DNA of 48,112 bases, from IMG/VR virus record IMGVR_UViG_3300042691_031827, positions 1-48,112 of that record. One strand, given 5' to 3'. This DNA is from a virus. The notes under the pieces are model-generated. The model was given only the letters and a program-made list of their open reading frames with translations. It made no database searches and was not told where the DNA came from. This document shows, one piece after another, positions 268-37,165 of this stretch (position 1 is its first letter; each line of letters begins with the position of its first letter). The translations under genes and the position numbers were made by a program.

Positions 268-1086
268 ATGCCAAATCCAAAAGACGTTACTGTAACATTG
301 ACCAATTTAACACCAAATGAAAAGTATAACTATACTTTCAAAAGTATAAGTTCTAATTGGCCTATCACTATAACGCCCATTAGCGGGATATTTTCTTCTA
401 CAACTACTAGCGGAACAATATCAGCTTCTGCTTATTTTTGTCCAACTAAAACTAGTTGTGATGAAAATTATGAGGGTTATCTTCCATGCACAGAGCATTT
501 TTGCACCGTAGGTGATGATTATTTTAGTAATATTGTTATTGATTTTAGTCTTGTTAGGGATCCTACAAAAGCTTATCAAAGTTCTGCATTTAAATTAAAT
601 GCTAATTATAGTCTACCAAAAGCACAAATAACAGCATCAAACACGCTATTAGACAGTAACGATGAAACAAATTTAAACGTTAAGTTTGTTAACCTGACTC
701 CGCAAAAAACATACCAATATTCTATATATTCTTTGGATGCTAATTGGCCATTTGTAGTTTCCTCTCCAACCGGGTATTTTCATTCTGGTAGCGGAGGAAC
801 TGCTGTTAATCCGGTCTCATTGAATATAGAAGCCGGATTCTGTCAAAATACTGGAGTTTGTTACAATGGTAGGTATGGTGTTTTAGCATATACAATTAAT
901 AATCATCCAAAATTGCACTGGTATAATCCTGAGGTTACTATTAGGCTATCATATTCTGATACAGAATATCCCGATATTGTACACAACAGTAATATAGCTA
1001 AATTATATTGTTCAGACTGTAACAAGTCCCAACCAACCACAAGAAGCATAGATATATCAGTTACCGCGCCATCAAATTGCACTTAA
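268..1086 (+). CDS. Two-repeat cysteine-module surface protein
   Basis: This 272-residue protein starts at ATG 268 behind a GAGGT ribosome site. It holds two copies of the module that is repeated in the next gene. Copy one has SNWPITITPISG near residue 30 and a C-x5-C-like pair (CPTKTSC). Copy two has DANWP near residue 160, FCQNTGVC near 190, and a closing CSDC near 250. No signal peptide or membrane segment is visible, which fits a virion protein assembled in the cytoplasm. The repeat looks beta-rich and Ig-like in its alternating pattern, but I do not recognise a named domain. Position and family suggest a tail fibre, decoration or adhesion subunit. The real-gene call is strong; the function is inferred. 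Confidence 0.75.
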   Translation: MPNPKDVTVTLTNLTPNEKYNYTFKSISSNWPITITPISGIFSSTTTSGTISASAYFCPTKTSCDENYEGYLPCTEHFCTVGDDYFSNIVIDFSLVRDPTKAYQSSAFKLNANYSLPKAQITASNTLLDSNDETNLNVKFVNLTPQKTYQYSIYSLDANWPFVVSSPTGYFHSGSGGTAVNPVSLNIEAGFCQNTGVCYNGRYGVLAYTINNHPKLHWYNPEVTIRLSYSDTEYPDIVHNSNIAKLYCSDCNKSQPTTRSIDISVTAPSNCT

Positions 1087-1105
1087 TAAAAACAAAGAGG
1101 AAATA

Positions 1106-4100
1106 ATGTCAACCATTCAATCAATAAATGTTCAAGTGAGCGGATTTGATCCTGATACAAGATATAATTTTATTTTCAAGAATACTGGTGGAAACTGGCC
1201 AGTTAGAGTATCTCCATTATCTGGATTATTTTTCCCCCCAAGTGTTAAAACATATGTTTATTTTTGTTCGAATTCGGGAGAGTGTCCGGAATCTGATCCT
1301 AATGTATTTTATAATGTTCCACAAAATAGTCTTACCACACCAGGATTAGATCTTAATAATAAAAGTTTATATACTGTACTAGACTTAGAGATCAGAGATA
1401 ATGCTTCTAATGAGCTTCTGCATACTCATCCTTGTGTAATACAGTGTGATCAGTGTATCCCCTCCTTATCTTTATCTTTTAATAATGGAGATGGCGATCT
1501 ATCACTAACAAGCGATGATGGAAATTCAAAAACATTTAATGTTAAATGCCTTGGTTTAATTCCAAATCAAGAATATACTTATGTACTGAACGGAGGAGGA
1601 GGTAATTGGCCTTTAAAGATTACTCCAAAATCAGGAATAATTACAACCTCATCTTCTGATCATACAATTAATGGACTGTTATCTTTTTGTCCATCCACAG
1701 GAGCTTGTCCAAGCACAGATCCTTCTATCATAAATTATCAGAATATACAAAATAGAAGATTTAGTGAAGACCCATACTCTATTGTAGATGTGTCTTTGAT
1801 CCCAAAAGATAGTACATTTCAAAATAAAGTAGTTGGATCTTTTTCTGCAACTTGCCTGGATTGCATTCCGGCTATACAAATACTTTCGCCTAATTTCGTT
1901 AATATAGGAAGTAATCATTCCGGTAACGAATTTGAAGTAACTATTAATAATCTTGTTGTTGGAGAACAGTATAATTATTCTTTTGCTGGTCTTGATGGGA
2001 ATTGGCCTCTAATATTATCTCCACAATCTGGTAGTGTTGTTGCTACCTCAGATTCGATGAAGCTGCCCGTTGTTGCAACATTTTGTACTGCTACAGGATT
2101 ATGTCCAAGTGGTAGTGCTGGAGTTATGCCATATACAAACCTAAGATCATCAAGTGTTGCACTTAATTCCATCAAAAAACAATCTAGATTCAAGATGTCT
2201 TTGAATCAAGTTGCTTATGCTACTCCTGTTGCTTACAGCAACGACATTGTTGCCGTGTGCAATGATTGCCTACCATTACTCAAGGCTAGATTACCATTGA
2301 GTACAGCATTGTCTTTTGGGGACGGAAACTATGTAGATTTTGACCTTCAAATAGATAATATGGTTCCTGGAATCGAATACCAGTATGTTTTTAAAAATAT
2401 CGATAGCAATTGGCCAGCAGTTATCAATCCTCTTAGTGGCAGCATAATTAGAAATAATACAGGAGGAGCAACCTATACTATACCAGCGTCTGTTACTTTG
2501 TGTCAGTCCACAGGACTTTGTCCAAATGGGTGTGCTAATATCCTGCCGTATACAGCAGCAGCAAACTGCAATAATAAAATTGCAAGATTTAAGGCGGAAA
2601 TCAGTGCTGTGGGATATGATATTCCATCAGTTAACAGTAATGCCTATATCGTTACCTGTAATGATTGTATACCTATGCCATCCGCGGTATTGCCAAATGT
2701 GATAGTAGATAGTGATAACGAAAAACTATTTAATGTTAGAATTGATAATCTTTCACCAACTTCCGAGTACAGATATAAATTTGTTAGCTTAGATAGTAAT
2801 TGGCCAGTAAGTATAAGTCCCATAAGCGGAGTCATTAGTTCAGCTAGCGAACACACACTATCTGTCTCAGCATCTTTCTGCCAAAATACTGGCGTTTGTC
2901 CAAACGGATCTCCAAATATATTGTCATATACAGCAGGATCTAGCAAGCAATTTAACTTTGGTTCTTTGAATAAATTTGCCAAAATTAGATTGGAAATCGA
3001 TCCAGTATTACCATCAAATAATGATTTAGCAACAGTATATAGCAATGAGGCTATGATTAAATGCAGCGAATGTATCCAGACCCCAACTATAACTGTTCCA
3101 AAAGAAGTTGCTATAGGACTCAACAATTTTGCCACTATAAATATAAGTGGGGCTAATCTGTCACCGAATACAGAATACAAATATAAATTATTATCCCTTG
3201 ATAGCAATTGGCCCACTATTGTTAATCCGGCTAGTGGCAGTATAGCAAAAAGCTCCACATGCAACATACCAGTATCGATATCTTTTTGTGCATCTACTGG
3301 CATTTGTCCAGATGGTAATAAAAATATATTATCATATAATATATCAACATCATATAATCAATTTACTTTAAGTTCATTACAAAAATCTAGTAAATTTCAA
3401 GTGCAGTTTGATCCAGTTGATGATGATTTACCAATAGTCTATAGTAATGAGTCACTGATAAGATGCTCAGGCTGTTTACCAGATCCAGAGATCACATTGC
3501 CTGATACTATCGTTATCAGCGATAATAATCCAAAGAAATTTTTCATATCAGGAACAAACCTATTAGACGGAGTGGAATATAGATATAGATTTGTTGGATT
3601 AGATAGTAATTGGCCAACAGTATTGAATCCTATTAGTGGTAATATTATTAGTAGTACAAGTGTACACATACCAATAGAAGCCTCATTCTGCGTATCAACA
3701 GGAGTTTGCTCCAATGGCTCTAAGAATGTTTTGGATTATACACTTGCTAATGAAAATCAATATAAATTTAATTTACTATCCAAAACTAGCAAAGTTAAAT
3801 TAGAATTAATACCAAACACAGCTGGACTACCAACAGTTTATAGTAATGAAACAGCTATTATCTGCTCTGGGTGCTTGCCAGAACCAGAAGTAGTATTACC
3901 GGACACAATCGTCGTTACAGATATTAATCCTGTAAAGTTTTCCATGTCAGGAATAAATCTTTTAGAGGGTGTCGAGTACACATATAAGTTTATTGGGCTA
4001 GACAGTAATTGGCCAACAATGTTAAATCCCATCAGTGGCACCATTATTAGCAGTAAAACTTTTAATCTTCCAGTGGAAACTTCATTTTGTGCATCCACAG

Positions 4101-5890
4101 GCATTTGTCCAAGCAGCTCTAAAAATGTGCTGAATTATACATTGGCTAACAATAACCAATATGCCATTGGATTATTATCCAAAGTTAGTAAAGCAAAACT
4201 AGAATTGACTCCAAATATTGCAGGATTACCAAAAATATATAGTAATGAAACAACAATTTTATGCTCTGGTTGCTTGAATCCTTTGTCAGCTGAATTTAAA
4301 CCATCATTGATTAATAATCCATCAAAGAATAATCAAAATAATAACATTAAACTAAACTTTAATGGTTTAGTACCTGGTGTCGAGTATTCTTATGTGCTTG
4401 AACCAGTTAAGAACAACTGGCCCATGACTGTTAATCCTATAAGCGGAACACTAGTCTCTCCAAACACATCTGGTGAAGCTACTATATATTATGATATTTG
4501 CTATTCAACAGGTTTGTGTCCTAGTGATAGTCTATACGTATTACCATATACATATACTTCTGACAGTGAAAATCGTAAACAATTTAATGTCAGAGCAAAA
4601 GTAAAAGCATTAAATAGTAGTGTACTAGAAGCAGAAACATTTAGTAATATATTTTCAATAAGATGTGATAGTGCAGACTGTCTGCCCAAAATAACAATAA
4701 GCGGAATTCCTGCTACTGGAGGAATAAGTTTCCGAGATTCGTATAGAATAACCTCAGTAATAAAAAATCTACTACCAGATGTTGTTTATTCATATAAGTA
4801 TAAATCTTTGGACGCAAATTGGCCATCTATAGTATATCCCGCTAGTGGAATTATTAGAAACGCTACTGGATATGAAATACCAACATCTATTCAATTCTGT
4901 AAGTCCACAGGATTGTGTCCTAATAATGGTAATAGTAGTGTTCTCTCATATGATTTAGACTCTGTTTGCCAAACAACAAACAACGAATTAGCATTTACTA
5001 AATATGTAAATTTTCTTCTTGAGGTTGAGCCACTAGCAGTTCCTGGATTATCAAAAGTATATAGCAATACGTCGCTATTAACTATGACCAATAATATTGG
5101 AGGATTAGAGATTACATATAATCCTCCTTTAAGCACTGATGGAGGCACAGTTATTGGAAATAATGACGGTATCTCACTAAATAGCACCTCTAAGGGAGTA
5201 TATACCTTAAGAACCAAAGCTACAGGATTATTAGTTGGTGAAAAATATGAATATACTGTTAATTATTTAGATAGTAATTGGCCAGTAGTTGTTAGTCCAC
5301 AAAGTGGGTCTTTTATTGCAACACAAGACAATAAAGTGATCTATACAGATATTGGTTTCTGTTTCCCAAGTGGCGAATGTGCCATGAACACTAAAGATGT
5401 TATCTTAAAATATAGAACAAATAGTTTGTATAATAAGAATCAAACAGAATTTGTTTCAGTAAATCTTAGCGTACAGCAGTCAGGATGCTCACAATCAATA
5501 TCTTATGGAAAAGACTATAAGGTAGAATGTAATAATTGTGTACCCAATAATCCTGTTCAAGTATCCATATCTGGCGGCCCTCTATTGCAACTAGGATCTT
5601 GCTGTTCTGGAACAAGATTAATGCTTGTTAATATTAGAGAAGCATCTTCTAGTGATAGATATAAATATGAATTTTCATCATTAACAAGTAATGTTACTTT
5701 TAATCAGCCATCTAGTGGTTATATGACATTCACAAAAAATGGCTCAGGAGTTATTATGGGTATTGCAAATACATCTTTAGTTAATTACGATGAGGGTGTT
5801 GTTAGATTTAGATTATACAATGAAAATAATGGAATAGAAGCTAATGATTATCTTGGACTAAAATGCGGACCAAATGAATGTGCAACATAA
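1106..5890 (+). CDS. Giant protein of about 12 cysteine-containing repeats
   Basis: This 1594-residue protein starts at ATG 1106 after AGAGGAAA, 19 bases behind its two-repeat paralogue. It is almost entirely made of a ~133-residue module. Each copy has a Y-x-Y-x-F strand, an NWP motif followed by P-x-SG, a C-x5-C pair of the form FCxSTGxCP, and a closing C-x2-C-(L/I)-P. NWP occurs near residues 30, 165, 298, 434, 565, 700, 834, 968, 1103, 1238 and 1390, and a degenerate twelfth copy near 1528 has lost it. Repeat 9 closes with C-x4-C and repeat 10 has lost the closing pair. The four cysteines per repeat could bind metal or form disulphides after release. The length and repetition fit an extended fibre or adhesin arm of the virion. 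I do not recognise a named family. Confidence 0.8.
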   Translation: MSTIQSINVQVSGFDPDTRYNFIFKNTGGNWPVRVSPLSGLFFPPSVKTYVYFCSNSGECPESDPNVFYNVPQNSLTTPGLDLNNKSLYTVLDLEIRDNASNELLHTHPCVIQCDQCIPSLSLSFNNGDGDLSLTSDDGNSKTFNVKCLGLIPNQEYTYVLNGGGGNWPLKITPKSGIITTSSSDHTINGLLSFCPSTGACPSTDPSIINYQNIQNRRFSEDPYSIVDVSLIPKDSTFQNKVVGSFSATCLDCIPAIQILSPNFVNIGSNHSGNEFEVTINNLVVGEQYNYSFAGLDGNWPLILSPQSGSVVATSDSMKLPVVATFCTATGLCPSGSAGVMPYTNLRSSSVALNSIKKQSRFKMSLNQVAYATPVAYSNDIVAVCNDCLPLLKARLPLSTALSFGDGNYVDFDLQIDNMVPGIEYQYVFKNIDSNWPAVINPLSGSIIRNNTGGATYTIPASVTLCQSTGLCPNGCANILPYTAAANCNNKIARFKAEISAVGYDIPSVNSNAYIVTCNDCIPMPSAVLPNVIVDSDNEKLFNVRIDNLSPTSEYRYKFVSLDSNWPVSISPISGVISSASEHTLSVSASFCQNTGVCPNGSPNILSYTAGSSKQFNFGSLNKFAKIRLEIDPVLPSNNDLATVYSNEAMIKCSECIQTPTITVPKEVAIGLNNFATINISGANLSPNTEYKYKLLSLDSNWPTIVNPASGSIAKSSTCNIPVSISFCASTGICPDGNKNILSYNISTSYNQFTLSSLQKSSKFQVQFDPVDDDLPIVYSNESLIRCSGCLPDPEITLPDTIVISDNNPKKFFISGTNLLDGVEYRYRFVGLDSNWPTVLNPISGNIISSTSVHIPIEASFCVSTGVCSNGSKNVLDYTLANENQYKFNLLSKTSKVKLELIPNTAGLPTVYSNETAIICSGCLPEPEVVLPDTIVVTDINPVKFSMSGINLLEGVEYTYKFIGLDSNWPTMLNPISGTIISSKTFNLPVETSFCASTGICPSSSKNVLNYTLANNNQYAIGLLSKVSKAKLELTPNIAGLPKIYSNETTILCSGCLNPLSAEFKPSLINNPSKNNQNNNIKLNFNGLVPGVEYSYVLEPVKNNWPMTVNPISGTLVSPNTSGEATIYYDICYSTGLCPSDSLYVLPYTYTSDSENRKQFNVRAKVKALNSSVLEAETFSNIFSIRCDSADCLPKITISGIPATGGISFRDSYRITSVIKNLLPDVVYSYKYKSLDANWPSIVYPASGIIRNATGYEIPTSIQFCKSTGLCPNNGNSSVLSYDLDSVCQTTNNELAFTKYVNFLLEVEPLAVPGLSKVYSNTSLLTMTNNIGGLEITYNPPLSTDGGTVIGNNDGISLNSTSKGVYTLRTKATGLLVGEKYEYTVNYLDSNWPVVVSPQSGSFIATQDNKVIYTDIGFCFPSGECAMNTKDVILKYRTNSLYNKNQTEFVSVNLSVQQSGCSQSISYGKDYKVECNNCVPNNPVQVSISGGPLLQLGSCCSGTRLMLVNIREASSSDRYKYEFSSLTSNVTFNQPSSGYMTFTKNGSGVIMGIANTSLVNYDEGVVRFRLYNENNGIEANDYLGLKCGPNECAT
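1160..5870 (+). repeat. Tandem ~400-bp coding repeats (NWP / four-Cys module)
   Basis: About twelve tandem coding units of roughly 400 bp lie inside the giant gene. They are similar but not identical at DNA level; for example, variants of GATAGTAATTGGCCA recur at most NWP positions. Divergence is highest at both ends, while repeats 4 to 8 resemble each other most, suggesting expansion from the middle by unequal recombination. The conserved codons also create long open frames on the opposite strand, which are not genes. Confidence 0.75.
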
Positions 5891-5905: not shown

Positions 5906-8530
5906 ATGGCTACTATTTCAGGAATAAATACTGCAAATTATAATAAATGTGTATCGTGGAATAATTTTATTGGAAATGTTAGTAGTGTTGGTCAAAATGG
6001 AGACCCAAGTTTTTGGGGAACCTATGATCAAGGCGGTAATGTTCTAGAATGGACCGAGGAACAAACATACTTGGGAGGATATGACAATTATGTTTTTAGT
6101 AAAATAGCATACGGAGGATCTTGGTCCACAAATGTTTCTGGAATTAGCAGTGATAATTATGGTCAATACACTAGACCAGGATTAAATGATCCTTCTTTAT
6201 ATAATAGCTTAAATGCAACTAATGAAAATGGTTTCAGAGTATTCTCATATACAAATCCACTAAATTTACCAAACTTTGTAACGGTGTCTGGTCAGAATAA
6301 TCAATCTCAAAATATCTCACAAGGTAATATTTATGGTATTGATAAAGACAATAACATATGGAGAATTCAGCCAGACGCTCAACAAATTCTAAAAATTATG
6401 AGCACTGGCCTTTCACTTCCAACAGGGAGTAATGCTATTGCTTATAATAATCAAACAAATCATTTGATATTTATGTATTATGGTACTGGAACCTTGCCAT
6501 TTGGACTTACAGGAAACAATGGATCAGGACTTTACTCTGTAAAAATAAATTATGATATTAATAATACTCCATTATTAACTAGTATTACTGGTATTTCTGG
6601 CTGGAATAATGTTATTGCTAAACCGATATATAATGCTTCATATTGGAATAATGCTAGCGGATCGGGTGGATATTGGTTCATGTCCGAATCTACGGGAGTC
6701 CTTAGTAAAATATCTTTTACTTCACTATCCAATAATGGACTTGCGGTTAGTGGTAATAGTTTGGCTTCTTTTACATTGTCAACTATTCCTATTCTTCCAA
6801 ATCTTTATGATAATCAATTTGGAGATATTTCTATTTCTGGCAGTTCGACCAAAGGATATCTTTACGCAACAACGAAGTTCGGATTCTTGTATTGTTTTGA
6901 TTTGACACCAACTATGTCGGGACAAAATCCTGTTTATATTACCGGTGCTAAAATTACTGGTGATGCCGTTGGCAGAACACTACAAACAACTTTTGACCAT
7001 AGCAATAGTATACTTTATGGTCATAGTTACGACAATCAAACATTGTATAGTATCAATACAGAATTTAACTCTAACTTTGGCCAAACTACTCTAATTAGAG
7101 ACACATATAACAATAATATATTATTGCCACAATTTACAGATATGTGTGGAGGAACAACCTATGCGATTGGAGCCGTTGCTACCGGGTATAGGGCTGGTAC
7201 TTTTCAAATTACAAATAAAGATTATGTAGATTTTTTGAATACTGTTGATCCTTTTGGAGATCAGGTTCAGTTAAGCTCTTATAATAATGGTTATTACCAG
7301 AATGCTACTTCTTCTACAGGAATATTATATACATATTTGATGGCTTCGGACAGAGGAGGTATTTTGTATGCACCTGGTAATGAGCCTGGTCAAAAATATA
7401 CAGTTAAAATATATATGCAAGACAAGCCAGCTGTATTTATTACATGGCCCATGGCAGCAAGATATTGCAATTGGTTACATAATAAGGTTTCTGATAATAA
7501 TTCTTTGATTACAAATATTGGAGCTTATAATTTTACAGCAGCGTCCTATGACGGAGGAATATCTGCCAACAGTGGTCTGATAAGATCATCAAACGCAAAA
7601 TATTTTTTACCTAATATACACGAATGGTATAAAAGCGCTTATTTTAGTTTAAATAAATTTCCAGCAGGACCGGTGTATAGCGGGTATTTTAAATACCCAA
7701 CACAGTCAGATTCACAACCTTCTTGCGCTGATACTGATCAATACGGAGAAGGTCCTAGATTTATTAATCAAATACATAGAATTACTTTTAATGATTTACA
7801 AATTGGAGATTCGTATACTGTTAATCTGTCTATTACTAAGCCAGATAAATATGATGCTTTTTTACCAATTAGCACTATTAATTTTATAGCATCTAATGAA
7901 TCCGAAACAATATTGGTTCCAATTACAAGATATTCTAGTGTTTTGGCGGTAGTATTAAGTTCACAATTGATACAAAATAACGGATCTATAACGGTCGAAG
8001 AAAAGACTCATTTAGTAACGTGTCAGCAATCAAGCAACTCATGTTTTGCTAGATTGCCAAGAACGCCACTTCCTACAAATACCACTACTCCAAGAAGCAC
8101 TGTCACTCCTACTAAAACTCCGTTTAATACTACCACCCCTACCCCAACAAGAACATCAACACCAGCAAACACGCCTACTCCCAGTACAACAACAACTATT
8201 ACCCCAACCTCCACTGTACCAGCCTCTTCTGTTTATGCTTGTAATTTTGTTGATGCTTCTAATAATTTTGATACATTATCAGGACAATATATTAGATCGG
8301 GTAATATATACTATAAATCAGGAGACAATTTAAGTTATAAATTATTTTATAATGGAACATCTTCTAGGTGGGAATTAACAAACAATGCTGGAACCTCAGT
8401 ATTCTATCATTCTACGTCAATATTTGGCTCATGGAGATCAGGACCAATGCTAACTCAATATCCTATAAATTCTCTAGGTTTTTGGGAAATAAGATCGTCA
8501 CAATGCGATAGTCGTGATTCTTTTCTATAA
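5906..8530 (+). CDS. Modular adhesin with a permuted FGE-sulfatase-like fold
   Basis: This 874-residue protein starts at ATG 5906 after AAAGGGAT. Residues 9-114 match the C-terminal half of the formylglycine-generating-enzyme/sulfatase-modifying fold: NTANYN, then YDQGGNVLEWTEE at 40-52, GGSW at 70-73 and GFRVFS at 109-114. Residues 125-415 look like a beta-propeller (repeats such as NIYGIDKDNNIWRI and GYLYATTKFGFLYCFDL). Residues 418-606 match the N-terminal half of the same fold: GTFQITNKDYVDFLN, then PAVFITWPMAARYCNWL, YFLPNIHEWYKSAYF and YPTQSD. The halves are therefore in reversed order. A beta-rich segment (610-710) resembling the upstream repeats, a Thr/Pro linker (about 715-770) and a small C-terminal domain follow. 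In phages this fold usually serves as a C-type-lectin-like receptor binder, so I infer adhesion rather than enzymatic activity. Confidence 0.8.
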   Translation: MATISGINTANYNKCVSWNNFIGNVSSVGQNGDPSFWGTYDQGGNVLEWTEEQTYLGGYDNYVFSKIAYGGSWSTNVSGISSDNYGQYTRPGLNDPSLYNSLNATNENGFRVFSYTNPLNLPNFVTVSGQNNQSQNISQGNIYGIDKDNNIWRIQPDAQQILKIMSTGLSLPTGSNAIAYNNQTNHLIFMYYGTGTLPFGLTGNNGSGLYSVKINYDINNTPLLTSITGISGWNNVIAKPIYNASYWNNASGSGGYWFMSESTGVLSKISFTSLSNNGLAVSGNSLASFTLSTIPILPNLYDNQFGDISISGSSTKGYLYATTKFGFLYCFDLTPTMSGQNPVYITGAKITGDAVGRTLQTTFDHSNSILYGHSYDNQTLYSINTEFNSNFGQTTLIRDTYNNNILLPQFTDMCGGTTYAIGAVATGYRAGTFQITNKDYVDFLNTVDPFGDQVQLSSYNNGYYQNATSSTGILYTYLMASDRGGILYAPGNEPGQKYTVKIYMQDKPAVFITWPMAARYCNWLHNKVSDNNSLITNIGAYNFTAASYDGGISANSGLIRSSNAKYFLPNIHEWYKSAYFSLNKFPAGPVYSGYFKYPTQSDSQPSCADTDQYGEGPRFINQIHRITFNDLQIGDSYTVNLSITKPDKYDAFLPISTINFIASNESETILVPITRYSSVLAVVLSSQLIQNNGSITVEEKTHLVTCQQSSNSCFARLPRTPLPTNTTTPRSTVTPTKTPFNTTTPTPTRTSTPANTPTPSTTTTITPTSTVPASSVYACNFVDASNNFDTLSGQYIRSGNIYYKSGDNLSYKLFYNGTSSRWELTNNAGTSVFYHSTSIFGSWRSGPMLTQYPINSLGFWEIRSSQCDSRDSFL

Positions 8531-12061: not shown

Positions 12062-15000
12062 ATGCCAACAGTACCGTGCTCAGGAACAGATAAACCTATT
12101 GCTCAAACACTATTCTTAGGAGCTAGTGTATCAAGTTTTTCTACAAATATGGGATGGGGAACTCAACCATCTCAATTAACTGTTAATCTTATAGAAGACG
12201 AATTATCATGGCTTTGTGATACTGATAATGTGCCTAGAAAAGATTCAGACGGATCCAACTATATGCAGTTTCACGGTTCTGATGATGCCAGTGTTGGTCA
12301 TTTTGACACTTGTACCGGAATAGGTTGTTTTGTGGATAGATACACTGGACAAAACGCATCAACAAGTACTCCAGTAGATAACAGAATAGTAAAAGGAAAA
12401 GTATATTATCAATTAAGTGATACTGGGTTGCAGTCAAGATATTGGAAAAGACCCGATCCGGGATTCATAGGACACAAAACAAGAATCAAGCCCGACGGAA
12501 CAGTAGACATGCCGGGCCCAACAGATACAGCGCATCCAAATTATAGATATGATATTATTGATGTTCCTGTTTATTTCAAAATGGGTAATTTTACATTTGG
12601 AGGATTTGTTCAGTCGTGGACAAGAGACACTAGTAGCTCAGGAAGACGATTTACTGTTATAGTTAATGGGCCACAGTCAATACTCAATTCCTGTATGATG
12701 GTTTTAAATAATTATGGAGGATCAATTTTTGGGAAAAAGTTACCACCACCAGCTACGGTAGCCTATGGTGCTCCTGGAAATTATTTACTATCTAGAGGAA
12801 TAGACTTTAATCAAACGAAACTATACGAAGGTGCTATGCCAAATATTTTTAATATTTATGGCTTTTTAGAATCTTTTGGATTTAACAGTTTTGGTGGGGC
12901 TTATAGAAATGAATCTGGAATTAGTGTTAATCTTATATTGCAAGCATTAATGGCTTTGACTTCAACAATACATGATAGTGGTTTTAAATTAGATTCTATC
13001 GGAGCCAATCGTGGTGACTATGCTACAAAAAGGGCATTTTCTCCTTTTGGTCGTATCATATCAAAAAGGATGCAACAAGAGTCTCCTATTGCCAATATTT
13101 ATGACGCTACATCCTGTAATACTTTTGGTATAGTTTATGCTCAAGATTTGAGACATATGGTTACTAATAATGATACTAGATGTCAATTCATATTAGATCT
13201 AAGTGATGTTTATTGGACTGATACTAATAGAACAATTAAAAGATTTCCGGATAGTTTCAGAATTAATGAGCCCTCATTAAGTATAACTGAATTTTTAAAT
13301 ATTATAGGAGAACAGTCTGGTCATGATTTTAATGTAGAAATGGATCCTATAATCTATGCTTCTCGGTTGTATAATGTTATTAAAGTTAAAACCATATCAC
13401 GATTAAAACAACCTCATCCATCAGTAATAGAAAATACTATCAAAAGTTTAGAGTGCGACGGATATCAAATATCTTCTCATTCTTTTGGAAAAGAAAAAAA
13501 TGATACTCCTAGTCGATGTTTATTAGTTGGAGGACAACAACAGCGATTGTACCAAGTCAAAAGCTATAGATTAGCATATAGTCAAAATAATTTTGTAATG
13601 AATCCTCGCACCAAAGAGTTTGTTAATTACTTTAGTTTGCAAAATCCTATAACCGAAACAAATGTAAACACCCCACCAGCTGCTCCTCTTGATAAGCAAT
13701 ATGGACATGGTAAAGTTAGATTTCCAAATTTTACATCAACACGCAATAAACTACTAAATGATTATATAGGCACTAGTAATCAATTGGCTCAAAGTTTTGT
13801 TCAGATTATAAATGATCAGAATGAAATGGTAATAACAAATCCATTTAATACGGAAGATACGAATTGGAAAACCAACGAATTAAATAGTACTCTTAGTGTT
13901 AGTAATGGTAATTATCTTAATTCTTTTAAAATTAGTCATAATGTTACTATAGCAAATAGCGGCAGATGGATACCATTATTTTTAGATGCAATATGTCCGT
14001 TCTTTGGTTTTGTTAATGATAATAGAATAGGAGTAAAAATAGGAACCGATAAAGATGCTGTTAATGAAACTAGACAAATAAGACCAGTATGGTTTGATTC
14101 CTGGACAGGACAATTGGCAGTAATAATAAGAACGTCAGAATTGCCAAAATTAAATCTTCCACTCACAAGACTTTATTTAGAAGCCAATTCCCTGCCTAAT
14201 GCTGGTGGCAATTATACTTTTAATATGCCTTATACATTTACTCCCACAGCTCCTACTGCTAATAGTGTTATTGATAATGCTGGGTTCGTGACCGCATACG
14301 ATCCTGTTGAATATTTTGTGTTAACAGAGAGTGAAATTAGAGCAGCGTTAGCCGGATTTGATAATTTTCTTGTATATTCTTTAGCAAAAACGTACAAACC
14401 AGATATTATAGAAATGGTTAGACGAGCATATTATATTAGCACAAGAAATCAACTCAAGATCAATAACTCTACTATTCCTTTAGCAGAGGCTCAAAAAATA
14501 GCATACGAAGAAACAGATTGGTATTGGAAACTTTTAGGATCTAATATTGGAGGAGACGATTTATATCCAACAATATACCATCCTGACAAAACTGATGGTA
14601 GTCAATATATTCAAGAAAAGGCATTACAAGATTTAAAACTAATACATCAATTTATTACACAAGTTGCTAAATATTATGGCAAAAAATATATGGTTTATGC
14701 TGATTCTGTTGGTGGCTATAAAGATTACGAATCTGCAGGAGTAGCATTTCCAACAAGAACTGGTTATGGATATGTGTTTGCTGGAGGTGGCAGATTAAAA
14801 TATAACTACGAACCAACTAATGACGGAGCATGGGAAGAATATGGCAATATTATTGACGATGCTTTTACTGTTGGCGGTTTAGAATGGATGACTTTGTCTG
14901 ATGATCAAGGAAAGATTAAACCCATATTAGGATATAATAACAATTATAACTATGATTATGTTAGACAAGCAAAGTGTTTGGCCGCTAATGCTGATAATAC

Positions 15001-18000
15001 TACAAACGAACTGAAGACCGTAGAAGCTAATCCTTATTTTAGCTATAATAACTGGCTAACATTATTCGAAGCAAAAAATACAAATTGTACAGATAAGTAT
15101 ACATTTCCATCTATAGATTATTCTTCTTTAAATTCAGAAGACTATGTTGTGATAGATCAAAAATACCAAGCGTCTCCAGCTGCTGTTTTGGCAAAAATGT
15201 TTGGAGACGGCGCCATATCTACCAGACTTAATTTGACTACTAATGTTTCATCTTATGATGCTTGGAATAAGGAAATCAAAGATACGGGCGTGGTTTTGCC
15301 AAGATCGAAACTGTTTCTTTCCACCACAGTTGATGAAAATTTTGCATTTTTAAATCCACAAAATATAGTGGGGCAAAATTGGGTTCCACGAGATCCTAGA
15401 ATATTAATTGACTCTCCTGGCGTTAATATCAATATGACTAGCGAAGAAAATGCCAAAGATCCGAATAGAACAGTTATAGCAAATGTTGCTGCAGAGGATC
15501 TGATGATCTATATGAAAAGTACTGCAAAAGCAAGTTGGGACTGGGGTTGGATCGGATTTATGTATAACTATATTAGTCCTGCTGTTATATCTGATACTGA
15601 CAATCCTTATTTTTTGGGATTATATACAGTATCTTCTAATCATACTGCTAATAATGTTGAGCTTGCTCCCAAAGCGGCCCACCCATTTTTTGCTGGCATA
15701 CCGATTAAATCAAATCAATTCACATATGGACCTTGGACAAATTATCCTTTTAGTAAATGTATTCCTGGAACAACCGGACTTTTCCCAACAGGTTTTACAA
15801 TAAAACAAACTTTTGCTGACGGAGCACTTGTTAGTTGTGTCAGAACGAATACAACAGTCATTTCTCCAGATAAAGCTAAACAAGCCTTGGACAATCTGAT
15901 CACATCTGTTGATATTGATTTTAATGAAGAATTTGTTCCATGGAATTATGGCGGAATGCATTACATGGATATTGCAGCATTTAATGAGATAGAAGGACGA
16001 GCTAATTATCAAGCGGTTTTAGAAACTGCTCAATTAGAAATGCCAGGATTGCCATTGTGGGATCTTGGTGGAAATTTTAATATAATCAATGCTAATACTG
16101 GAGTCAAATATCTCCCCGCAGAAATTAAAACTTATGAAGTTACAGGAAAAGATATTAAAGGAGCAGCAACAATTGCACCAGTAAATTTAAATTATATCCC
16201 TGGTGTTCAGTATATATCATATCCTAATAGTGTTGACAATGCTGTTGATTACAAATATAAACTTCTAGACCTAAGACAAAGGCCTAATTTTGTTGAAGGA
16301 CCAATTGTCACATCCATACAAACTAGTGTTGGAGAGCAAGGTATATCATGTACTTATACTTTTAGAACATATACTAGAAAATTAGGAGCTTTTAATAAAA
16401 TAGAAACTGATAGAATAAAGAAAATCAATAGAGCTAATTTATATAGAGGAAAACAAATAGCTAAAGTTCGTCAAGACGTTAGCGATATGATGAATAAAGA
16501 AAGAGAGAATCTACTACAAGAAAGATTAAATCAAACTCAATTTGGTAGCGCTGATTTTGCATCTAAATTATATGGATGGAGTCCCACAACGGTATTAATA
16601 GGTCAAGCCTCGCCATTAATTCATGAGCCCGCTAGAACACCAGACTATATAGAGGATTTCTCTTATGCTAATAGTCCAACCCTTAATACTCTCGCAACAA
16701 GAATAAATACTCCAACAGCATGGAAAATCACAAAATCTAGCGGAGATCCTGGTTTGGATAGTAATGCTGGTAATTTTGCATTGTCTGTTGGTACATCTCC
16801 TCCATTACTAAAGAATATTGGAAGAATAACAACAACTGTTGGATTATTTGAAAGAAAAGAAGTAGAAAATCAGTTACAAAAAGATTATGGAATGCAATCA
16901 GCAATGAGTTTGGATGGATTGTTATCTCCGATATCTTTTTATCCTACATTTAAAAATTCAACCTTCGCTTATTCTTTACACAACACTGGATCGTGTCCAT
17001 TTTGCAAAGGTACTAAGGTTAGAAAATTTAAAATATCTAAATATAATTCCGCTGGTGCGCCAGTTGTGGATAAAAATATAAATGTAGCATGTGATAAATG
17101 TACGGATGCGTCTAATAGACTTAATGCTAAACTTTCTGCTGGAAGCAACGAAGATATTCCTATCAATCTTATTACTCTTAATCCTATAGTGGTTCCTCAT
17201 GGAGAATTTAAAAATGCCAATGTCCAGAATTATAGTGGTGTTCATCCACAAAAAAAACATGATGATTTAACGTCTTCAGTTCCTGGGGGACGAGTATTCA
17301 GAGACAGATTACGACATTCTATAGAAATTGTTGGTAGAGGATCAGTTCCTCCAAACAAACAAGGATATGCTTTAGAAATTAGCAAAAATATTAATAAGGC
17401 TGGTACTTATAATTTAGATTATTATAGTAAAGATACTGGATTATATACTCAAAGACAAAAAAGAGGAGATGCTTCAAATACAATCTTACACGAAAATAAT
17501 CAAAGGTTTTTTGGATTAAGAGGTCCGTTAGTATTACATTCTTGGGGATACGATGCTGATGGATATCCTGTGCCTAATGCTGCTGATGAGCCTGTGGCCG
17601 TTGATCTATACGGCAGACCCAAAAGATTTCAATTAATCAAAGTTAATGGAACAAGCAAAGCTTATAAAGATCTTACTGTTGGTCAGCAATTTACATATAA
17701 TAGTGCTGATTATGTTAAAACTATAAATCAAGAGGAACTAACTTTTTTGCCTTCCACATTTAAAGAAGACACTCAAGTTACTACCTTTGAGATTAAGGAT
17801 AATTATGATGCTGATGGAGGAACCGATCCTGGTGCCGATGGACCATTTGTTGGATATAAAGGCAGTATCATTAGCAAAACTCAAAAATTTAGTGGTGGTA
17901 AATGGTCGGAAAAAGTTAAATTAGATGAATTTTATCTAAATTGGGCTGAAAGACCAGACTTATGGAAGGTCGGTCCTATTGATTTGTTCTGGGATGAAGA

Positions 18001-18565
18001 AAGAGGAGTATGGTCTGGAGGAAAAGGAGGGGCAGAAGAAATTGATCCTCCTTACATTATTACTAATTCTAATGATATTATCACTTTAAATGAATTTATT
18101 TCTAAAAAAACCAATCAAAAATATATATATAGAATGATCTATGCTGTATTAGAAGAGGATCTAATAAAACAACCAGATTTTAATGAAACATATGCCACAA
18201 GAGGATTCTTTGATGATGTAGAATATAGCAGCGAACCTTTACTACAAGGATATAGAAGATTAATATATATTAAAGATAAAACAGGATATTGTGCTCCAAA
18301 AGGAACAAAATTACTATGCAGATACAATTCCAAAACAGGATTTTATGAGCCAGTTAGTAAACCTGTTATCACAACAACTGGGAAAATTATAAGCTCAAGT
18401 CAAGTGTTATTGAATTTGTTGTATACTCCCAGTCGTAGAAGTAATGTTATTCCAACATCCACAGTAAATTATGTCAATCCGCTTGGATTTGCTACGCCAA
18501 TTAATGAAATAGGAGTTTTTTCTTTTATAGACAGTAAATGGACACTAACTTCTATAAAACAATAA
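12062..18565 (+). CDS. Giant baseplate/tail protein with a zinc-knuckle-like segment
   Basis: This 2167-residue protein starts 3 bases after the previous stop without a clear ribosome site, so translational coupling is likely. The N-terminus (FLGASVSSFSTNMGWG, then LTVNLIEDE) resembles the opening of large phage virion proteins near the baseplate. A segment near residues 405-430 (PSLSITEFLNIIGEQSGHDF) is reminiscent of hub-type (gpD/gp27-like) proteins, but this is weak. Residues 1644-1684 contain CPFC and CDKC, two C-x2-C pairs about 35 residues apart, a possible metal site. Residues ~1868-1888 (DLTVGQQFTYNSADYVKT) resemble the 59-residue ORF in the polymerase operon. No membrane segments are seen. 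I infer a structural role in the tail or baseplate. Confidence 0.6.
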   Translation: MPTVPCSGTDKPIAQTLFLGASVSSFSTNMGWGTQPSQLTVNLIEDELSWLCDTDNVPRKDSDGSNYMQFHGSDDASVGHFDTCTGIGCFVDRYTGQNASTSTPVDNRIVKGKVYYQLSDTGLQSRYWKRPDPGFIGHKTRIKPDGTVDMPGPTDTAHPNYRYDIIDVPVYFKMGNFTFGGFVQSWTRDTSSSGRRFTVIVNGPQSILNSCMMVLNNYGGSIFGKKLPPPATVAYGAPGNYLLSRGIDFNQTKLYEGAMPNIFNIYGFLESFGFNSFGGAYRNESGISVNLILQALMALTSTIHDSGFKLDSIGANRGDYATKRAFSPFGRIISKRMQQESPIANIYDATSCNTFGIVYAQDLRHMVTNNDTRCQFILDLSDVYWTDTNRTIKRFPDSFRINEPSLSITEFLNIIGEQSGHDFNVEMDPIIYASRLYNVIKVKTISRLKQPHPSVIENTIKSLECDGYQISSHSFGKEKNDTPSRCLLVGGQQQRLYQVKSYRLAYSQNNFVMNPRTKEFVNYFSLQNPITETNVNTPPAAPLDKQYGHGKVRFPNFTSTRNKLLNDYIGTSNQLAQSFVQIINDQNEMVITNPFNTEDTNWKTNELNSTLSVSNGNYLNSFKISHNVTIANSGRWIPLFLDAICPFFGFVNDNRIGVKIGTDKDAVNETRQIRPVWFDSWTGQLAVIIRTSELPKLNLPLTRLYLEANSLPNAGGNYTFNMPYTFTPTAPTANSVIDNAGFVTAYDPVEYFVLTESEIRAALAGFDNFLVYSLAKTYKPDIIEMVRRAYYISTRNQLKINNSTIPLAEAQKIAYEETDWYWKLLGSNIGGDDLYPTIYHPDKTDGSQYIQEKALQDLKLIHQFITQVAKYYGKKYMVYADSVGGYKDYESAGVAFPTRTGYGYVFAGGGRLKYNYEPTNDGAWEEYGNIIDDAFTVGGLEWMTLSDDQGKIKPILGYNNNYNYDYVRQAKCLAANADNTTNELKTVEANPYFSYNNWLTLFEAKNTNCTDKYTFPSIDYSSLNSEDYVVIDQKYQASPAAVLAKMFGDGAISTRLNLTTNVSSYDAWNKEIKDTGVVLPRSKLFLSTTVDENFAFLNPQNIVGQNWVPRDPRILIDSPGVNINMTSEENAKDPNRTVIANVAAEDLMIYMKSTAKASWDWGWIGFMYNYISPAVISDTDNPYFLGLYTVSSNHTANNVELAPKAAHPFFAGIPIKSNQFTYGPWTNYPFSKCIPGTTGLFPTGFTIKQTFADGALVSCVRTNTTVISPDKAKQALDNLITSVDIDFNEEFVPWNYGGMHYMDIAAFNEIEGRANYQAVLETAQLEMPGLPLWDLGGNFNIINANTGVKYLPAEIKTYEVTGKDIKGAATIAPVNLNYIPGVQYISYPNSVDNAVDYKYKLLDLRQRPNFVEGPIVTSIQTSVGEQGISCTYTFRTYTRKLGAFNKIETDRIKKINRANLYRGKQIAKVRQDVSDMMNKERENLLQERLNQTQFGSADFASKLYGWSPTTVLIGQASPLIHEPARTPDYIEDFSYANSPTLNTLATRINTPTAWKITKSSGDPGLDSNAGNFALSVGTSPPLLKNIGRITTTVGLFERKEVENQLQKDYGMQSAMSLDGLLSPISFYPTFKNSTFAYSLHNTGSCPFCKGTKVRKFKISKYNSAGAPVVDKNINVACDKCTDASNRLNAKLSAGSNEDIPINLITLNPIVVPHGEFKNANVQNYSGVHPQKKHDDLTSSVPGGRVFRDRLRHSIEIVGRGSVPPNKQGYALEISKNINKAGTYNLDYYSKDTGLYTQRQKRGDASNTILHENNQRFFGLRGPLVLHSWGYDADGYPVPNAADEPVAVDLYGRPKRFQLIKVNGTSKAYKDLTVGQQFTYNSADYVKTINQEELTFLPSTFKEDTQVTTFEIKDNYDADGGTDPGADGPFVGYKGSIISKTQKFSGGKWSEKVKLDEFYLNWAERPDLWKVGPIDLFWDEERGVWSGGKGGAEEIDPPYIITNSNDIITLNEFISKKTNQKYIYRMIYAVLEEDLIKQPDFNETYATRGFFDDVEYSSEPLLQGYRRLIYIKDKTGYCAPKGTKLLCRYNSKTGFYEPVSKPVITTTGKIISSSQVLLNLLYTPSRRSNVIPTSTVNYVNPLGFATPINEIGVFSFIDSKWTLTSIKQ

Positions 18566-18591
18566 TAGATTAGGTTAAAAGGACGAATAAA

Positions 18592-21500
18592 ATGTTTAAA
18601 CCTATATGGTTAGATAATAGTAATTACTGTAATGTTCTTAAGCACTCATTGTCAGATGATCTGTTGCCATTCAGCTTGAACTCTGAAAATCAGTTAAATT
18701 ATGATTCTGGTCTTGCTGGCAACTTAACATCAAAATATAGTACATTAAATTCTTTGGCTACTAATAGCACCTTATTAGATGTTTGGCAGCCCATCTTTAT
18801 CAATAATGATACTAATATTAGTACAAAGTTATTATCATCGTATGGAAGTTATCACAACTCTAATCCTAATCTAAAGAGTTGTAGACTGGGGATAGAAAAT
18901 TTTTATAACTTTACTGGTAATTTTAAATCTTTTTCTAATACTGCAAATATGAGTATAGATTGGATAATAAATAATTCTAATATGCCATATTATTTATGTT
19001 ATGGAATTTTATGTTGGTATAGATACAATAATTTCTCAAATAATCCAAATATTATGGATGGTAAAGCGCAAACTATTGATAAATTTCCTAATGGTTCTAG
19101 ACTGACCCCATCAAATGATGCCAATAAAATATATATTAAATTAAATGATACTAAATTGTATGATATTGCTAATCCTAGTAAGATTTTTCAAAATGATGTT
19201 TGGACATTTAACGCAGAAAAAAATACTTCGATAGTGGAAGTATCTTCTTTACCATCGAATGTAACTTTTAAGTTAGCACATAAAGAAAAAGATACAGAAA
19301 CAACTACCAAAGATAATAATTTAAACCCTACCTTTTGGATATCGAATGGAGATTGTTTTTTTTATTATGATAACACAGAAGATGTGGCGCTTTCTTCAAC
19401 CAATAATATACCTCCTAAATCTTACATATCATCTTCATTATACAAAAGCTATAATTTAATATATAGAATTATAACACTAGACGAAGAAAGAAATATCAAA
19501 CCAAAGAATTTAAGAAAATCTAGATTATATCGTTCGCTGGCTCATGTGCTAAGTACTAGTCCGTTTATTACTGAATTCTCTATTAAAGCTCTAGATACTA
19601 CGCCTATAAGAAATCTTATAGCACAATATGTCAACACGACAGCATTCGCTAACGCGGCCGCATCACAGGCCCTATTAAACACATTATTGATAAATATTAG
19701 CACACAATTACAAAAAACTATTTCTACTATTCCTAATGATTCATTATATTTAGATACAAAATTTTCTAAAAATACAATTCATAATAATGTAATTAGAAAT
19801 AAAAATGATCTATTCTATAAATTATTTCAAAAATATGGATCTTATGCTAATATCACTACTGATACTACCTTTACAGTAAAAACCGATAAGTTAAAAGTTG
19901 ATAACCGTGCAATATCCATATTTCAAAATATCGAGTATTATTGTGATAAAGCATTATCTGGTCCAATTGATCCTTTTAATAGTCTAACAGTATATAATAA
20001 TCAGACTATAACATTTGATAATACTGTTATTTCTACAGTATTTGATACACGACAGAATTTAATAAATATCACGAACACTAATGACGCATCATTATTGAAA
20101 GAAATACCTTTATATAATACTGCAAGACCATCTTTTAATGCTGGTAATTTTTCTTCTGTTTTTAAACCATATATTTCATATACAGGATATGTTCAAAGAG
20201 AATATAGAGAAGATAATATGGAGTATCATCCAGAAGTACAAGGCAATATGGCATTAAATAATGAGGATAATATCTATTATGCCCAAGTTGATCTAAATGC
20301 TCAAACAAAACTTTCTGCTGATCCTTATGCTAGTCATATATCTAATTTATATAACGATGGTGAGGATGGGTCTCCTCCTTTACAGAGTCGAGTATTTCAG
20401 GGAATACAAGGAGTCCGCAACTATAACAATAATGATAATGGTATAGAGCTGATAGCTATCATATTGGCCGGTACGGATCGAGCTCTTGGTGCCGATACAG
20501 GTGGTCCACGTAGCGATGTTGTTGGAATGCCAGAATCATATCTGGAGCAGTCTGTTTCTTTTCTTTGGGAACAGGTTGATGGAAGGACGGGGTATTTTGG
20601 AACAAATATGCAAGGCACAGACTACAGAAATGCGACAGGATTTGGACATTTAACTCAGTTTTATCCACAATACACCGGAAAATATACTATCAAATGCACA
20701 GCATCTACACCATTTGGTTCTTTTATCAAATACAAAACATTTTATGTTGTTGATGGCAAAAATTTAAATAATAGTACACAATATGGTAAATACTGGGATC
20801 CAAAATCCAAATCTTGGGTAGATCCTATAGCAATTAATCAATGGTCTACTCCTTTAATCATGGATAAAGATAATATACTCTGTAATACTATTAAATTTAA
20901 TAAAATTGCTATTAATAATGTTGCTGGGGTTTTTCTGCCTATACAAACAAATTGTGCGGTAAGAAGGCCGCTTGGAAATTTGGGTCGAGGCACGACAACA
21001 GTTGCAGTGATAAAAAATATGGGATCAGAATGTATTTTCGACTTCCAGAATTCATTTACGTTACGAAATAGTCCAATATTTAGTATCCAATATAAACCAA
21101 ATAATACTATAGGTAAACTTTATAGTATATATCTTGAAAGAATGAGAACAGATGATCCTAAGTGCTCTCAGTGTTTGAGTATGTATTACCCTAAAATTAC
21201 TGTACAAGCAAGCAATAAATATTTGGATCAAGGATCGATAGAAAAAAATCGTAATGTTACATTAAGACAGAATAAGTATGCTGGTGGAGATGGTGCCGAA
21301 GCTAGTTTTGAGCTAGAAAAATATATATATCGACCAGAATGGAACGGATATAAAAGTGTTGATACTACTAACGAGGGAAAACTTAACTTTTATATTTATC
21401 CTCAAGTGTCTACTAAATTTGCTCCACCAATTAAAAGTTATGGTGGATATAGTAAATCTTTTTTGGATTCTATAGGGATAAATGTTACTGGTCTAACCAA

Positions 21501-24500
21501 ACCATCGGGCAACATAGCTTTGCCTAATGTTCCTAGTCCTCTGGTTAGCAACAATCCTACTATACTACCACATGTTACAGGATATCCTTTAAATCAACCA
21601 AATTTAATTTGTATGCAAAAAGCGATACAATTAGATGGATCTGGTTTAAAAATGCCTTTTATTAAAGGAATATTTCATCCTTCCAGCGGATGGATATATT
21701 CTGCTAATGCGAATAAATCACCTGTGCTAAAATTTAATCCTGGAGGCCGTGACTCTTTCAGTTTCATAGGACCAAAACTAGATAGATTAAAATCTAATCA
21801 ATCAAGTATAGCTACAAATCAGACAATACCCAAAATATTTTCTAGCACAATATCATTATCAATTTCTGATGGGGTTCGTTGGGAGTGCTGCCCAGGAACA
21901 GATTCCGCGAATCAATTACATAAAAACTATGCAGATATCGACTTGCATAATTTTAATAATAATCATGGTTATAGAATATTAGACAAGGGACGGCCAAAAG
22001 ATGTAGAATTAAAAAGTATGAATAATTATTCAGTAGTTAATGATGAATTTGAATATATACCGGAAGTAGATACTTCGTATTATAAATTTGCGGTAACAGG
22101 ACCATTTTCTAGCGCTTATGGATCAAGAAATAAAAGAATCCCAAGAATTAATAATTTAAGTATAAAAGATATTGAAGTCAAATTAAATTTTTTAAATTAT
22201 GTCAATACTAAAAATCTTATAGTGTGGTTAGACGTAGAATATGATCCAAAAGAAAAAGAAATTAGAGAATCTGCTACGGATTCTCCATTAACATTAAGAA
22301 GTAAAAACTTTATTAATCAAACCATAAATCAAAATGTATTTTTTGGAGATTATATATATAATCAGAATAAAATTAATATTTTAGCAAATTCTGGGTTAAA
22401 TGACTATCTAAAAAATTTATTAAGTTTTAATAGTGTATCTGGATTAGATAATAGTAATTTTAAATTAGTTTTATTGAATCAAGAAACCTTATATAATAAT
22501 GGATATAATTTTAGCATTAAATTTTCAGATCATGCCTCGAAGCATACCTCTCCATATGAAGTGCTCAACTCTGACAACTATTATAGTGCCGCATCTGGTT
22601 CTGAGTATTCTTATCTCTTAGATCCCATAAGATCAAAACAAAATATATTACAAAATAACCATGAGGTTTTGCCAACCATAGCAGCTACAGGGTTTTCAGA
22701 TAGACAAGCATGCCAGCATTCTTCAATAATAAAATTAAATAATTTGAATATTAGTAATAATACTTTTAATAAATTTGTTTCAGATTCTTTGTTTAGAAAC
22801 ATTTCCACATCATCGTGTCCTTCGGGTTCGTTAGATGGTGAAACAAGATTTAGATTAAATATAATGGTATTAGATGAAGAAGATGATATGACACCGCTAG
22901 ATAATACAATTAATGCTCAATATTTATCGGAATTTGAAACTGTAAAAAATATACCAAAATCTAGTTTAATATCAAACTCTTTATGTAGTTGGGAGCTGAT
23001 ACTACATACCGAAAAAGAAAGAGACTTTATACCAGAAACTAAACCTAGTTTAACATCCTATGGAAGTAATGACGTTTTGTCATTAATAGATTATAAAAAA
23101 GGTTTAATATACAATGGACATAGTTTTATTGCAGATTTAACTAAATATAAACACTTATTGCCATTGGCTAACTATAATGCCCCGCACTGTTGCATATCGG
23201 ATGAAAATATATGCTCTAGTCCAGACAATGACCCTACTGGATCAATAACTATGCAAAAGCCCCCAGAATTTCCCAGCTGGGCCATTCTTGCTATAATGAC
23301 TTCTCTTGCTGCTGCTGGAGCAATGGGGGGCATGGGCGCCGTTGGTGTCTTAGCAGGCATTGCGGGAATAAATAATGATGCAGCTTACGGGGCGATAATA
23401 TCATTTTTAAGAGAATCATCATATAGTCAAACATTACAAAATGAAGTTAGAGACGTATGGATACCCAGTTATAAAAAATACCCATTCGGGTCTGCCGAAA
23501 AAATTCTACTAAATTTTAAAACACCTACTTCTTTATGGCACACTGCGGAAGCAAGTATTTTTAAATACCATAATACTCCAATATTAAAAAATAATCAATA
23601 TAAATTTATTAGATTATCTAAACATAACGATTTTGGAAAATTTGAATATAAAAAAATTACATCATATAAAGAATTAATAGATCCAAAATTTATTAAAAAT
23701 ATATCGGGGGTTTCTGATGGTACTGCTTTAAATCCCCCTAATTCTTATAATAATACAGTTGTTAATAGTGGAGATATTTTATATGATATAGTTAATAGCG
23801 GTCTATATCTAGCTGGTCAAACCGCTAAACTAATTACAAATGCTAATAATACTAATAATAAATTTGAAAATCTTAATAAAGCTAATTTATATATAAGTCA
23901 AAATGCAGTTTTATCTTTTGGTCTTTCCACAGATCAATTTTGGCATAATAATATTATTGGTGTCGATATAAGTGGCAACAAAATGATAGCCATGTCGGGA
24001 AGAATACCATATGATATTTTTGGTTATAATGATTCTGTTATTCTAATGTCAGGAACAGCGACAGTCTCTAATACAATACTTAAAAAAGCTTTAATATTCC
24101 AGAATAATAGTTATAATTCAGTGTTTGTAATGTCCAGTCCTATACAGCCTGGCTATAATACCATGTGCCCTAACGATAATGATACTATATTTTTTGTTTA
24201 TAAAAATGAAACAACAATTCAAGACAAAGTCAAACGAAAATATAATATATGGGGGTTGAATGATGCTAGTAAAGTGATAAATGATACTGTTGATTTGCAA
24301 TCTACATGTAATTCCATAGGATCATATGGTGATGCTTCAATATTTTTAGAAAAGAATGTATTGTCTAATAATATTCATAATAATAAATTAAAAAATATTT
24401 CAGAAATATTGAATAATCATGAAAATGATAAAATTAAAAATGCTAAAATCACATTATTTCAACCAGTGAATACTGGGACTACTAACGAAAGTTTGAATAA

Positions 24501-34633: not shown

Positions 34634-34662
34634 ATTATATCCTGACCACACGTATATGTCAA
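34634..34662 (-). promoter_or_regulatory. Consensus sigma70-type promoter for ssb
   Basis: On the minus strand TTGACA (plus 34657-34662) and TATAAT (plus 34634-34639) are separated by exactly 17 bases, a perfect consensus. The -35 box overlaps the stop codon of the polymerase C-part gene. Transcription would start near 34627, giving a leader of about 30 bases with the ssb ribosome site. A perfect match in AT-rich phage DNA strongly suggests use of the host housekeeping sigma factor. Confidence 0.88.
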
Positions 34663-36284: not shown

Positions 36285-36295
36285 TATAAATACTA

Positions 36296-36991
36296 TTATC
36301 CAATGAATGATGATTTAAACTTAACTTTGTTAGCAATATTTCTATGTAATTTTAAAAATCTGATTAAAATTTGTGCGGTATCTTTAACATCTTTTAGAGC
36401 ATCGTGTGATCCTGTCTTATCTATGCCAAGATAATCTCTTAGGTTATCAAGAGTATAATTTTTAAGCTCATTATTGCCTTCAAACCAATAAAAAACTAAG
36501 TTCATAATATCTATAACATCTCTTGGATAAAATAAAGATGATCGTCCCTCTTTATTAAGATTATTATATTTTGTACTTAATTTTTCTATAATACGCAAAT
36601 CAAATCTGTTAATATTGTATCCAGCAGCAATTGGTGCTGAGAAACATGATTTTTTGCTATGACTGCGAATATGATACATATCCAAATAAGATACGAACAT
36701 TCCCCAACCATGTTCTTGCTTTTGATAAGTTTTCCAAGACTCTAAAACGCTTTCTTTTGTAGAGCCTCTAACCTTTGCATGAAAATCTAATACATCCGAA
36801 TCTTCGTATGAATATTCAGGATTATTCTCTATTGCTAATGGTTTAATGTTAATATTGAATTCTGAATTTTTAATTATTTCCAATTTGAATGGATCGACCA
36901 TAATCGCAGCTATTTGCACAGGGCTGCACAAATCTGGATTAGCACCATCTGTTTCCAAATCGAAAACGCAAATTTTTTGTGTATTAGCCAT
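36296..36991 (-). CDS. DnaQ-type 3'-5' proofreading exonuclease
   Basis: This 231-residue protein of the DEDDh family corresponds to the proofreading (epsilon) subunit. Exo I is FDLETDGANPD near residues 10-20, with Asp and Glu as metal ligands. Exo II is GYNINRFDLRII near 122, with the conserved Asp. Exo III is SHDALKDVKDT near 195, with His and Asp. All four acidic or basic ligands are present, so it should be active. It sits between the two polymerase halves, where it would be made together with the alpha subunit. Its start overlaps the 59-residue ORF by 8 bases. An insertion near residues 75-110 (KTYQKQEHGWGMFVSYLDMY) adds length to the usual fold. Confidence 0.9.
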   Translation of the reverse strand: MANTQKICVFDLETDGANPDLCSPVQIAAIMVDPFKLEIIKNSEFNINIKPLAIENNPEYSYEDSDVLDFHAKVRGSTKESVLESWKTYQKQEHGWGMFVSYLDMYHIRSHSKKSCFSAPIAAGYNINRFDLRIIEKLSTKYNNLNKEGRSSLFYPRDVIDIMNLVFYWFEGNNELKNYTLDNLRDYLGIDKTGSHDALKDVKDTAQILIRFLKLHRNIANKVKFKSSFIG

Positions 36992-37163
36992 TTACCACTA
37001 CTACTGTGTCACCAGAAAAATGTCCCTTTTGTGAAGCGTCAGTAGTTGCATAACAATTCACTGATCTGCAACAGCTGATCCTAACCTCATCCGATTTAAT
37101 ATATTCTGTACCATTAACACTAAATTTTTCACCAACAGCTAAATCTGAAAATTTTTTCTCCAT
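36984..37163 (-). CDS. 59-residue protein inside the split-polymerase operon
   Basis: This is a short gene of 59 residues, starting at ATG 37163 with AAAAGGAG seven bases upstream. It begins 2 bases after the N-part polymerase stop and ends 8 bases inside the exonuclease gene. It opens MEKKFSDLAVGEKFSVNGTE and continues with YIKSDEVRISCCRSVNCYAT. The pattern suggests a small beta barrel with a Cys-Cys-x5-Cys cluster. The tight spacing and perfect ribosome site make it a real gene. I do not recognise the family. Its first part resembles a segment of the 2167-residue virion protein near residue 1868. A polymerase-associated role is inferred from position only. Confidence 0.72.
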   Translation of the reverse strand: MEKKFSDLAVGEKFSVNGTEYIKSDEVRISCCRSVNCYATTDASQKGHFSGDTVVVVNG

Positions 37164-37165
37164 CT

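Follow-up and report, generated by a model that had tools for sequence, protein, structure and literature searches.

The window analysed here, a 48,112-base virus fragment from IMG/VR, encodes an 874-aa protein in which the two halves of an FGE-type fold occur in swapped order, with the C-terminal half placed ahead of the N-terminal half. We hold it to be very probable that this arrangement represents a single circularly permuted FGE-type C-type-lectin domain, which would have arisen by duplication and loss, spread among phages and taken on a ligand-binding role in the virion. The gene is laid out as follows:

5906..8530, + strand: coding sequence, from ATG to stop codon, of the 874-aa protein that carries the permuted FGE-type domain (ORF list; orthologues L003, L004 and L005 share both ends).
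5915..6241, + strand: C-terminal half of the FGE fold (residues 4–112), placed first; half-profile match of 95 bits, with PF03781 profile positions 150–225 on 5933–6133.
6242..6304, + strand: joint after GFRVFS (residues 113–133, NPLNLPNFVTVSGQNNQ...), which corresponds to the native N-terminal strand in members with ordinary order (alignments A4/A5; bacterial native N-termini and tandem linkers).
6305..7165, + strand: beta-rich insert of ∼290 aa (residues ∼134–420) within the joint (blastp; low-confidence model).
7166..7711, + strand: N-terminal half of the FGE fold (residues 421–602), placed second, its last motif being YPTQSD; half-profile match of 154 bits, with PF03781 profile positions 36–122 on 7184–7639.
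7712..8044, + strand: region (residues 603–713) that close relatives retain alongside the FGE domain, Ig/Fn3-like by eye (alignment with L018, L027, L031 and L038).
8054..8227, + strand: Thr/Pro-rich linker of the TPTPT type (sequence; match to PHROG 15511).
8231..8527, + strand: C-terminal domain (VYACNFVDASNN...), conserved in orthologues (alignment A1).

The initial annotation had described FGE-like halves in swapped order, and the motifs lie at the places and in the order that it gave. Those of the C half come first: NTANYN (from residue 8), YDQGGNVLEWTEE (residues 40–52), GGSW (70–73) and GFRVFS (109–114). Those of the N half follow: ITNKDYVDFLN (435–445), PAVFITWPMAARYCNWL (508–524), HEWYKSAYF (572–580) and YPTQSD (597–602). 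Two stretches of the protein match the Pfam FGE-sulfatase family PF03781; the whole-protein match has E = 3.7e-7 and a score of 30.5 bits, above the gathering score of 23.3. In a DNA-level profile search, the stretch corresponding to profile positions 150–225 (E = 8.4e-5) precedes that corresponding to positions 36–122 (E = 1.2e-5), so that the order of PF03781 is reversed in the window. Because the two parts are complementary as well as reversed, the relationship is more than a resemblance of motifs. Each segment spans about half of the profile, and neither forms a complete independent fold. The gene had been placed at 5906–7750; its start is correct, but the reading frame continues to 8530. 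The upstream ORF, which ends at 5890, contains no FGE half.

The swapped order, first noted as a feature of one odd protein, is widespread among viruses. A degenerate pattern for W..AxRYCNWL identified 52 loci in a viral collection; nearly all of their units consist of a C half followed by an N half, and half-by-half profiles were built from them. Two more degenerate patterns, one for each half, added 115 further viral loci with both orders present. Full viral units comprise 110 in C–N and 25 in N–C order (79 and 18 after dereplication), numbers that are not a census, as the search patterns were derived from the family itself. A genome-collection scan using the permuted alignment supplied the bacterial set, in which all 71 full units are N–C. 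Sixty-three complete ORFs, some near-identical loci included, contain exactly one C half and then one N half. Among permuted units in general, the gap between the two half-profile matches is usually 24–40 residues, and small ORFs of 329–383 aa are among the proteins with such a joint. Almost all of the 63 lack another same-strand FGE half within 1 kb. The few FGE neighbours at this distance are complete units themselves, and we therefore rejected pairing in trans between halves from adjacent genes. Forty-five non-redundant permuted units can be aligned end to end, and all 45 match PF03781. Viral scans seeded from alignments (A2, A3) returned only the known orthologues, the chosen words being too specific. 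The complete gene, its two halves taken separately, three units from relatives and the full-length L150 protein served as seven tblastn queries against 50,697 phage records and gave no match; a helicase control found 450 of these records.

Structure prediction for a compact relative yields one closed domain. The 290-aa unit L017, from a related contig, was modelled by AlphaFold2 with the 45-unit alignment as a single domain (pLDDT 93.6, pTM 0.93), in which the joint of the old ends has a pLDDT of about 95–98. Foldseek comparison of this model with the PDB returned TvpA (2y3c, probability 0.91) and CarF (5aoh, probability 0.82) over 91–103 columns and with low TM-scores; such half-length matches are expected, because a sequence-ordered search should catch only half of a permuted domain. 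When searched against PDB sequences, the 45-unit profile matched SUMF1, SUMF2, FGE, TvpA and PorK chains with its pieces in crossed order. This is clearest in 5aoh, where profile positions 186–270 correspond to chain residues 78–163 and positions 38–101 to residues 200–263. A single-sequence PDB search with the window protein (P0001) produced chance matches only, a BFVD fold search gave no significant match, and no solved structure has this half order. The model of the window protein is weaker overall (mean pLDDT 58.7, pTM 0.61), as its insert is held by only three aligned sequences; both FGE halves are mostly at 85–97. A fold search with this model was uninformative owing to the poorly modelled insert, and the fold of the window domain thus rests partly on its relatives.

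It had been suggested that the two halves join either within one chain or across the subunits of a trimer. The monomer model of the compact relative, which closes well, favours the first option. Phage fibres are commonly trimeric, and the halves might instead pair between subunits by domain swapping, so that no single chain would hold a complete permuted fold. We regard this as improbable, both because the L017 unit closes as a monomer with a well modelled joint and because the short joint typical of the units turns up in many unrelated proteins, small ORFs among them.

Alignments A4 and A5 and a comparison of joints indicate that the old termini have been joined and that one new break has been opened at a constant site. 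The single break that the initial annotation located between YPTQSD and NTANYN recurs in unrelated phage proteins, where the cut falls between YxTQS[DN] and [NT]xAN[YFW]. After GFR, the phage units read like NP..L.NFV.VGD.NN..D..GYGSV.Y.Y.I.KY.VTN. Ordinary bacterial proteins open their N half with a similar stretch, VTVGNPGNAAD...G.GAV.Y, and in bacterial tandem (NCNC) proteins (e.g. L107, L081, L070 and L093) the domains are linked by 28–37 residues of similar kind.

The joint resembles both a native N-terminus and a bacterial tandem linker, which suggests duplication and subsequent loss of the outer halves. Most likely, an ordinary FGE domain gave rise to a tandem pair whose outer halves disappeared, leaving an arrangement of C half, linker and N half. 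The old N and C ends would thereby have been joined, and the chain would have been broken in the loop that links YPTQSD to NTANYN. The permuted form would then have spread among large phages as a virion-protein module. When the halves are concatenated in one order for tree building, permuted units cluster strongly. The trees require at least 3–4 order changes, of which starred branches force 2–3, and L023 and L148, despite their ordinary order, group with permuted units. Since the trees need several order changes, the permuted form may have had one origin or several. We think it likely that the permuted FGE/CLec domain is a widespread and undescribed standard virion module of large uncultivated phages, probably with few origins, that its joint is a site of domain insertion, and that a phage genome carries up to about ten copies of the unit.

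In the window phage, the joint between the old ends has probably also acquired a beta-rich domain. This insert is absent from the close relatives L027, L031, L038 and L049, which align on both sides of it, and blastp indicates that the insert region is common to the window, L018, L016 and L056. It is beta-rich in a poor model and has weak propeller matches; our guess from this model is that it may be a beta-propeller. The L018 ORF also carries a second insert of about 100 aa (residues ∼660–768) within the N half of its permuted domain.

The gene is conserved in three orthologues (L003, L004 and L005, on virus contigs of 175, 88 and 71 kb), which are 83–85% identical to it over the whole gene and share its layout, start, stop and upstream neighbour. 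Both FGE halves are under purifying selection (dN/dS about 0.08–0.12 by a simple Nei-Gojobori count). This bears on the proposal that a tandem deletion left two partial, independent FGE-derived domains, each half a decayed remnant. Bacterial NCNC proteins with the same linker do exist, but we give this proposal very little weight, as the halves are complementary, conserved and selectively maintained, the position of the cut is shared by unrelated phages, and the L017 unit is modelled as one domain. Although every sequence is a metagenome contig, the chance of an assembly or gene-calling artefact is negligible, because the whole gene, with its half order, start codon and ends, agrees across four independent contigs and the swapped order occurs in dozens more. 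Neither orthologues nor relatives combine such an artefact with a full FGE domain on one side, an outcome that the initial annotation had envisaged.

FGE enzymes need a cysteine pair in the GGS...GFR segment. There is no Cys in this segment of the window protein and fewer than two in 44 of the 45 units; judged by its residues, the window domain is not a catalytic formylglycine-generating enzyme. The units retain the GNVxEW and AN[YFW] motifs, which in FGE contribute to calcium sites. With the cysteine pair absent, a ligand-binding role in the virion appears most likely, and domain context suggests both the ligand binding and the virion location. A phage context is supported by weak terminase matches in some of the contigs, including both longer orthologue contigs, and by long ORFs rich in repeats and T/P linkers; L019 has tail-fibre PHROG matches outside its FGE part. 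Within a tail or fibre protein, the domain would probably bind a ligand on the host surface rather than act as an enzyme, and the label of adhesin given to the window protein is plausible. Hypervariation by a diversity-generating retroelement (DGR) was also considered and is not supported: no reverse transcriptase (RVT_1) match was found in the window or in 22 other contigs, all of them fragments.

Comparison with known systems places the phage units within a familiar fold class. Like the PF03781 family (SUMF1/FGE-type), they match in both halves and contain GNVxEW, GGSW-like and GFR motifs and a W..AxxYCNWL helix. Unlike that family, they have swapped halves, lack the catalytic cysteine pair and often occur in multiple copies in virion-type proteins with T/P-rich linkers. 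The closest cellular sequences are single and tandem FGE proteins of Planctomycetota and Verrucomicrobiota, at most about 60% identical to the L017 unit (best segment). These have an N-terminal VxVGNPGNxxD...GxGxVxY stretch in common with the phage units, but all 86 with paired halves, single or tandem, are in the ordinary N–C order. By eye, several have a PEP-CTERM-like anchor at their end. The FGE subclass of DGR variable proteins (Mtd, TvpA 2y3c and AvpA) belongs to the same fold class, TvpA being a top PDB fold match. These proteins had already established the fold class and its employment by phages, with Mtd serving in phage receptor binding (PMC5006420). In them the variable region lies at the C-terminus or close to it, and none is described as permuted (PMC5006420).

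The fold is thus known, and the permuted form is apparently undescribed. Our literature search, which covered open-licence papers, turned up no description of an FGE or CLec fold in permuted form; an earlier notice elsewhere is possible. The permuted form is absent from PDB and BFVD fold matches and from the 50,697 phage records. The FGE-type C-type-lectin fold is a favoured scaffold for ligand binding in phages and bacteria and for DGR hypervariation. Together, the permuted phage form, its ordinary bacterial relatives and the intermediate-like bacterial tandems make a clear natural case of permutation via duplication and loss. Searches by profile or fold that take chain order for granted catch half of the domain at a time, which may leave adhesins of this kind under-annotated. 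At 290 aa, the compact units have a size suited to expression and structure solution.

Several viral ORFs depart from the simple C–N unit. In L028 (ORF of 3063 aa, residues ∼952–1399), an ordinary-order FGE domain (N half 1040–1187, C half 1200–1292) lies inside the N half of a permuted one, one FGE domain apparently being nested in the other. The L148 ORF (1764 aa) contains a C half, an N half and another C half within residues 9–549, the second C half lying 21 residues from the N half; this arrangement is possibly an intermediate or a reversal. The L035 contig (151,782 bases) contains about ten FGE units over several ORFs, one of them 3754 aa long.

Elsewhere in the window, two ORFs built of repeated domains occupy positions 268–5890; their motifs resemble SLDSNWPxxxxPxSG and FCxxTGxCP, and they match Pur_ac_phosph_N/fn3-type profiles. 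Within 12062–26220, a 2167-aa and a 2542-aa ORF, both very large, have no Pfam match. On the − strand, DNA polymerase III alpha is apparently split into two ORFs (34659–39037), with the PHP and polymerase part at 37166–39037 and the finger, HHH and OB part at 34659–36284; an RNase_T exonuclease ORF (36296–36991) lies between them.
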